Positions 62,340-64,000 of a stretch of 64,000 nucleotides of DNA are shown piece by piece. Position 1 is the first letter of the stretch, and every line of letters starts with the position of its first letter. Source of the DNA: Flavobacteriales bacterium (GTDB lineage Bacteria > Bacteroidota > Bacteroidia > Flavobacteriales_C > GCA-002722245). A model generated the notes under the pieces. That model was given only the letters and a program-made list of their open reading frames with translations. It had not been told where the DNA came from and ran no database searches. Where the stretch lies: the NCBI GenBank assembly GCA_023251075.1, contig JAHEZM010000007.1:62001-126000 (forward strand). Reading direction: 5' to 3'. Both the position numbers and the translations under genes were made by a program.

Positions 62340-62879
62340 ATGAAACATTTATTACTTTTCTCCACCGCTTTTTTCTGTTTAAATATTTTCGCCCAAAGCG
62401 ATACTGAAGTAGATTCAACAGCATTCGAGAAACCGAAATTCAAAATAGATTACACAAAGGTTTATGGAATTTCACTAGGTGCAAATTATGCCGAATATCT
62501 TTTTGCCGAAGTGGGCTTTTATAAAAGTCATGTTTTTAAAACAGGAAAATATCCCCAATTTTCTGCCTTAGCTAATTATGCCTGTGAAATTTCAATGGCC
62601 GATAAATTAGTACTTGGTCCTAAAATTCAAACCCGATTACACATTGGATATTTCTGTCCTTCTATTACTACCGTTCTATATACCGATTTACAAAAAGGAT
62701 ATGCCCTTAAATTTCGTCCGGAAATTGGTTTTGGAATGTGGTTTTTCGACGTATCATATGGATACAATTTCAATATTGCCAAATCAGGATTAGACCAATA
62801 CAATCGCCATGTTTTATCGCTGCATACTTATTTAGGACTTAAAAAAGTTAAGAAAACAAAATACAGTAGTGAATTTTAA
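62340..62879 (+). CDS. Small exported protein, possibly a beta-barrel
   Basis: 179 residues from ATG 62340 with signal peptide KHLLLFSTAFFCLNIFAQ. The mature part alternates hydrophobic and polar residues (YGISLGANYAEYLFAEVGFY, LGPKIQTRLHIGYFC, FRPEIGFGMWFFDVSYGYNF), resembling an outer-membrane beta-barrel of small size. Not recognised further. The stop overlaps the archaemetzincin start region by 11 bases, so the two are probably co-translated. Confidence 0.7.
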   Translation: MKHLLLFSTAFFCLNIFAQSDTEVDSTAFEKPKFKIDYTKVYGISLGANYAEYLFAEVGFYKSHVFKTGKYPQFSALANYACEISMADKLVLGPKIQTRLHIGYFCPSITTVLYTDLQKGYALKFRPEIGFGMWFFDVSYGYNFNIAKSGLDQYNRHVLSLHTYLGLKKVKKTKYSSEF

Positions 62880-63525
62880 ATCCATCATAAAGCATGGCTT
62901 TAAAGGATATTTTTCAATATTCTTACTACTTCAACTTTTCTCTTTCAGCTCTTGCGAAGATGAACCTAAAAACAAAGTCATTGGTTTACAAACGCTCAAT
63001 TACTTTCCCGATTTTTATTTAGATTCTATTTCGGCCGCTATTCATCGATGTTATGGATACGACACCTATGTAATGCCGAACATTAAAATTCCAGATAGCC
63101 ATTTTATTAAAGTAAAATCGCCCCGCTACAGAGCCGATTCTATAATAAACATGCTCAATGAACGCAAACCCGATAGTCTTGCTCATATTTTAGGACTCAC
63201 CTGCGTAGATATCTCTGTAACCAAAAGAGATAAACTCGGCAGAATTTTAAAACCCGTGGCCTTTTATACCGATTGGGGAGTTTTTGGCTATGGCTATGTT
63301 GGAAAACCAGGATCGGTGGTTTCCACCTTTAGAGTTCAGGGTCCCAATCAAAAACTGGTGATAGACAGAATGCAGAAAATTAGCCTGCATGAACTGGGAC
63401 ACAACATGGGCCTACCCCACTGCCCCAACAAAAACTGCTTTATGCGCGATGCAGTTGAATCTATTAAAACCGTTGATAAAGAAGGGAAAACGCTATGCTC
63501 CGATTGCAAAAAAAAGCTGCGTTAA
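62869..63525 (+). CDS. Archaemetzincin-family zinc protease lipoprotein
   Basis: 218 residues. The N-terminus has a lipoprotein signal ending FSSC (Cys about residue 29). The zinc signature HELGHNMGLPHCPNKNCFM (about 168-186) fits archaemetzincin HExxHxxGxxHCx4CxM, and exactly 17 residues follow the Met before CSDC, completing the full family motif. Archaemetzincins are usually cytoplasmic or archaeal/eukaryotic small proteases; a lipidated, exported one is unusual. Substrate unknown. Overlaps the small barrel-like gene by 11 bases. Confidence 0.9.
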   Translation: MNFKSIIKHGFKGYFSIFLLLQLFSFSSCEDEPKNKVIGLQTLNYFPDFYLDSISAAIHRCYGYDTYVMPNIKIPDSHFIKVKSPRYRADSIINMLNERKPDSLAHILGLTCVDISVTKRDKLGRILKPVAFYTDWGVFGYGYVGKPGSVVSTFRVQGPNQKLVIDRMQKISLHELGHNMGLPHCPNKNCFMRDAVESIKTVDKEGKTLCSDCKKKLR

Positions 63526-63608: not shown

Positions 63609-64000
63609 ATGTCGAGTGAGATTCAAGGAAAAGTAAAGCAGATTTTTTCTGCCTATCTGGAGAAAAACGGTCACCGTAAAACTCCCGAAAGATTTGCCAT
63701 ACTTGATCAAATCTACTCCCAAAAAGGTCATTTTGAAATAGAATCACTCTATGAAAAAATGAAAAAGAAAAACTATCGTGTAAGTAGAGCTACCCTGTAT
63801 AACACTATGGATTTGCTGCTGGCTTGCAACTTAGTTAGAAAACACCAGTTTGGAAAAAACCTCGCACAGTTCGAAAAATCACACGAATTCAAGCAACACG
63901 ACCATCTTATTTGCACCGAATGTGGCAAAGTGATGGAGTTTTGCGACCCTAGATTGCAAAATATTAAATCCACAGTAGGCGAACTACTCGATTTTGAGGT
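63609..64000 (+). CDS. Fur-family transcription regulator (partial, right edge)
   Basis: At least 130 residues from ATG 63609; the 3' end is outside the window. The winged-helix part is typical of Fur: KNGHRKTPERFAILDQIYSQ and RVSRATLYNTMDLLLACNLV. The metal region begins with HDHLICTECGKVMEFCDP, where the His-rich lead and CTEC are the zinc and sensor site elements. Which metal or peroxide it senses cannot be told. It lies 83 bases after the archaemetzincin gene on the same strand. Confidence 0.93.
   Translation, partial: MSSEIQGKVKQIFSAYLEKNGHRKTPERFAILDQIYSQKGHFEIESLYEKMKKKNYRVSRATLYNTMDLLLACNLVRKHQFGKNLAQFEKSHEFKQHDHLICTECGKVMEFCDPRLQNIKSTVGELLDFE

Follow-up and report, generated by a model that had tools for sequence, protein, structure and literature searches.

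The 64,000-nucleotide stretch of DNA analysed here (the window) carries, at 62869..63525 on the plus strand, a gene for a protein of 218 amino acids (GTG start, TAA stop) which, as judged by its signature and its modelled fold, is a true archaemetzincin of peptidase family M54. Conserved features of its N-terminus give strong grounds to predict that this protein is exported and anchored by a lipid. The exact coordinates, strand and length agree with those of a preliminary description of the same DNA. Archaemetzincins are known from archaea, bacteria and mammals; they are usually intracellular and their biological role is poorly understood. No description of an exported or lipoprotein archaemetzincin was found in the open-licence literature, and the window protein thus appears to belong to a known family in an apparently undescribed, exported variant.

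Family membership and fold

The protein has the layout MNFKSIIKHGFKGYFSIFLLLQLFSFSSC(29)EDEPKNK...HELGHNMGLPHC(185)PNKNC(190)FM-17 residues-C(210)SDC(213)KKKLR. The full archaemetzincin signature, HEXXHXXGXXHCX4CXMX17CXXC, is present at residues 174-213 as HELGHNMGLPHC-X4-C-F-M-X17-CSDC, and its X4/X17/CXXC spacing equals that of the published signature (PMC3427221). The catalytic zinc motif HELGHNMGLPH (residues 174-184, with His174, Glu175, His178 and His184) is encoded at 63388..63420, plus strand, and is followed on the same strand at 63421..63507 by a Cys4 site (Cys185, Cys190, Cys210 and Cys213) together with Met192 of the Met-turn.

The metzincin/archaemetzincin domain, delimited by NCBIfam, AlphaFold2 and Foldseek, covers residues 37-217 (62977..63519, plus strand). 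Profile matches put membership of the family far beyond chance. The Pfam M54 profile (PF07998) matched with an E-value of 4.8e-16 and 59.8 bits, above its cut-off of 24.4. The NCBIfam archaemetzincin model NF033823 aligned residues 38-217 with model positions 2-170 of 170 (E=2.7e-29), at a score of 102 bits that lies below the cut-off of 145 of that stricter subfamily model. PDB entries 2x7m, 3zvs and 4axq were matched both by sequence and by fold. An AlphaFold2 model built from an alignment of 18 relatives had a mean pLDDT of 87.7, with blocks from residue 41 on at 80-97, and its best Foldseek matches were 3zvs, 2x7m and 4axq, with TMt values (target length) of 0.83-0.89. Solved archaemetzincin structures, along with one related zinc peptidase from archaea, made up the top five matches (E-values from 1e-14 to 2e-11). 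Other metzincins matched far less well. Signature, Pfam profile and fold bear out the family assignment of the preliminary description, which had proposed a lipoprotein archaemetzincin with the complete family motif, X17 and CxxC included.

The three PDB entries represent AmzA of Archaeoglobus fulgidus and Methanopyrus kandleri (3zvs, 4axq and 2x7m; PMC3427221), which has the same full signature and the same fold, at 26% identity in the structural alignment. AmzA chains are 160-195 residues long, whereas the window protein adds a signal peptide, a lipid-attachment cysteine and 30-odd residues ahead of the domain. The exported metzincin lipoproteins of Bacteroides (TIGR03952, BF0631 type) are also zinc metzincin lipoproteins of Bacteroidota, but they form a different family, as the window protein scored 11 bits against their cut-off of 208.

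Predicted signal peptide, and membrane anchors predicted in Bacteroidota relatives

Residues 1-28 (62869..62952, plus strand) form the predicted signal peptide. Its n-region bears positive residues at K4, K8 and K12 (K/H/K) and is followed by a run of hydrophobic residues that leads into the lipobox F-S-S-C, these features being kept in relatives. The phenylalanine at lipobox position -3 is slightly unusual; L/F-F-S-C is found in many relatives. Cys29 (62953..62955, plus strand) is the predicted lipid-modified residue 1 of the mature protein and is followed by EDEPK. Signal and lipobox calls were made with our own hydropathy and pattern rule plus conservation. Cys29 was aligned to a cysteine in 72/72 lipobox-type proteins, rows that had been picked for having that cysteine, and it was nearly invariant in a separate, independent alignment check. 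As a test, the preliminary description had set the conservation of the lipobox in close homologues; in each of the four copies from the same genus (G001-G004, at 53-60% identity), a signal was followed by the lipobox cysteine.

An ordinary cytoplasmic archaemetzincin, with the signal an annotation artefact and the true start further in, would fit the GTG start codon, which lies within an 11-base overlap with the 3' end of the preceding gene. However, no in-frame ATG, GTG or TTG other than the GTG at residue 1 precedes residue 69, which is the next possible start and lies inside the fold. The NCBIfam match starts as early as residue 38, nine residues past Cys29, so the signal must be translated. 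The hydrophobic N-terminus and the cysteine are moreover kept across the subfamily. A cytoplasmic start further in was rejected on these grounds and is considered extremely improbable.

A profile-guided scan of named genomes yielded 80 related loci, nearly all from Bacteroidota by name; a single-sequence search of the genome contigs had returned no relatives, and it was the alignment-based search that found them. Four loci with truncated or unreadable frames (L100, L104, L141 and L156) were not judged. Among the 76 assessable relatives, 71 had a signal ending in a cysteine (65 fitting the lipobox pattern and six with a hydrophobic stretch that leads to an atypical box) and five had an N-terminal membrane helix; no full-length relative without a membrane anchor was seen in this set. 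The helix stands in place of the lipobox in L091, L101, L130, L149 and L150, is preceded by mostly positive residues and, in L091, contains a cysteine. The lipobox is therefore a rule of the Bacteroidia subfamily and not an oddity of the window gene. In contrast, a signal was found in 0/42 M54 loci from other classes of the phylum, which encode short proteins; the two that our rule had flagged as "helix" correspond to the first strand of the domain. The survey for lipoboxes that had been proposed thus gave a divided answer to the earlier statement that most family members lack export signals, which holds for the other classes and fails for Bacteroidia, where export is the rule.

In the phylum as a whole, an M54 match was obtained in 57/395 sampled genomes. 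The gene is patchy within Bacteroidia, being present in 5/5 genomes of the window's genus and in 0/5 of the sister genus. In a tree built on the domain alone, from which the signal was mostly excluded, the signal-less forms fell on one side of a branch (support 86), and a starred group (99) was formed by the window's subfamily and a type with a shorter spacer. The helix-anchored copies were nested in the lipoprotein group in two places, which indicates that the type of anchor changed while anchoring itself was kept. This swap of lipid anchor and helix on the tree leads us to raise, tentatively and as less probable than its contrary, the idea that Bacteroidia possess an exported, membrane-tethered archaemetzincin branch with a dedicated envelope function, in which tethering itself was selected. 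Such a function might be, for example, the removal of signal-peptide remnants or the cutting of one specific envelope protein.

A second, longer M54 type of about 290-315 residues, mostly with a lipobox and with an extra N-terminal stretch, was also observed (L055-L062, L065, L068-L074 and L013, the last in the same-genus genome G002). Its motif reads HEIGHMFGxxHCxxAxCVMNGTNSxxETD, several copies having Ser or Thr aligned to the motif Gly, and it was set apart on a long branch of the domain tree, where its placement is unsure. Two loci from MAGs of the same source, L144 (titled Thiomicrospira cyclica) and L146 (titled Draconibacterium orientale), encode archaemetzincins whose N-termini look the same, and the names of these records are likely the result of mis-binning or mis-naming.

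Probable orientation in the envelope and possible activity

Taken together, we consider the window protein to be, with better than even probability, an envelope-anchored M54 zinc peptidase of an exported Bacteroidia subfamily that faces the periplasm, its side and its activity being what we infer. After synthesis with its signal peptide, the protein would receive a lipid at Cys29 and become tethered to a membrane, most probably the outer membrane at its inner leaflet, and its catalytic domain would project into the periplasm. His174, His178 and His184 would bind the zinc, and Glu175 would act as the general base. The Cys4 site, as a second zinc site or as disulfides in an oxidising periplasm, would hold the C-terminal subdomain. 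Targets may be short or unfolded peptides, or one specific envelope protein.

The side was considered from the residues after the lipobox cysteine, since an acidic stretch at this place often brings Bacteroidetes lipoproteins to the surface; the published export motifs are K-(D/E)2, Q-A-(D/E)2, SDDDD and SDDFE (PMC5080379). A surface-exposed lipoprotein peptidase, flipped across the outer membrane to digest proteins or peptides outside the cell, be it for nutrition or in competition, could be read from the E-D-E at +2 to +4 of the window copy and from the T-E-E after the cysteine in its nearest relative. However, a published motif was found after the cysteine in 0/72 members, and 67/72 had at most one acidic residue at +2 to +6. 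None of the others in this set of 72 is as acidic at these positions as the window copy (EDEPK), yet K, Q or S is lacking ahead of its acidic run. SusD, which was sought in the window's genome to calibrate the motif, was not found there. A helix preceded by K/R, as in the helix-anchored relatives, would put the domain on the periplasmic side and so supports that orientation for the family; helix-anchored proteins cannot reach the surface by the lipoprotein route. Around the relatives, no broadly conserved neighbour (a component of an uptake system, for instance) was observed, none being common to more than 21 loci. The absence of the motif and the helix-anchored relatives thus favour a periplasm-facing family, and the surface reading is thought unlikely. 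For the window copy itself, surface exposure may still apply, since EDEPK is the most acidic sequence of the set and export signals vary between species.

In a comparison of 161 loci, made with no preselection on the motif, the HE..H and the third His were intact in 160, the remaining one having N for the third His, and the cysteines of the Cys4 site were kept in nearly all. The X4/X17 spacing was exact in 64/73 relatives, most of the others having X5 and one being truncated. Two further cysteines (C-X4-C) in the loop that precedes the active-site helix were present in 55/72 and 35/72 relatives and possibly form a disulfide; the window copy has neither, with V at residue 144 and S at residue 149.

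The closest bacterial comparison is CarG of Myxococcus xanthus, an archaemetzincin homologue with a regulatory, non-proteolytic role (PMC3427221). The preliminary description, which knew of no bacterial function for the family, was not quite right on this point; such non-proteolytic archaemetzincin-like proteins have an NCBIfam model of their own (NF033824, CarG type). CarG is a bacterial M54 homologue with a Cys4 site, as is the window protein, but it has Gln for the catalytic Glu and acts in transcription control, whereas the window protein keeps Glu and is predicted to be exported; the latter matched NF033824 weakly, at 38.9 bits where the cut-off is 250. This precedent, together with the inactivity of crystallised enzymes (PMC3427221), could suggest an exported protein that does not cleave at all and serves as a zinc- or peptide-binding or regulatory envelope module similar to CarG. 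Against this, the catalytic Glu and the three His persist in all but one of the 161 loci, while CarG lost its Glu. In addition, AMZ-tk of Thermococcus kodakarensis, an archaeal M54 protein with a zinc-binding motif like that of the window protein, is an active zinc-dependent protease that degrades casein (PMC4681839); the text of that paper makes no mention of signal peptides or lipoproteins. A non-proteolytic module is therefore regarded as rather improbable, and a periplasmic peptidase is preferred. Intact catalytic residues are nevertheless no proof of activity, since the Archaeoglobus archaemetzincin that was crystallised proved inactive towards many substrates (PMC3427221) and CarG is non-proteolytic.

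A subfamily fixed in the envelope narrows the compartment in which substrates of archaemetzincins are to be sought. In culturable carriers such as Flavobacterium, strains that lack the gene, its catalytic activity or its anchor could be set side by side.

Gene neighbourhood

The gene upstream, whose 3' end overlaps the archaemetzincin start, encodes a small barrel-like outer-membrane protein with a signal peptide (62340..62879, plus strand; Pfam OMP_b-brl, E=0.044, below the cut-off). It had been suggested as a partner, and the neighbourhood comparison proposed for it spoke against this: the four other genomes of the genus lack the gene, it stood beside the archaemetzincin in 0/80 named relatives, and it had a single weak homologue among 60 related genomes. 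The barrel-like gene was therefore rejected as a conserved partner.

Downstream lies a gene for a Fur-family regulator (63609..63998, plus strand; PF01475, E=1.1e-26), which is cut by the end of the window. A Fur-family gene that is 93-94% identical adjoins the archaemetzincin gene in L085, L086 and L087, and is followed by a purA-like gene in L085 and L086. As it is kept only within the genus and together with the purA-like gene, this arrangement was taken as plain synteny and the Fur-family gene was rejected as a functional partner. The most widely shared neighbours among the relatives lie downstream on the opposite strand, mainly at Flavobacterium loci, and were likewise read as synteny.

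In the window, the barrel-like gene and a gene with an FGE-sulfatase domain (PF03781; 61006-62166, minus strand) are located between an asnB-like gene and the archaemetzincin gene. Since the asnB-like gene lies directly upstream of the archaemetzincin gene in L086 and L087, these two genes look added in the window, or lost elsewhere.
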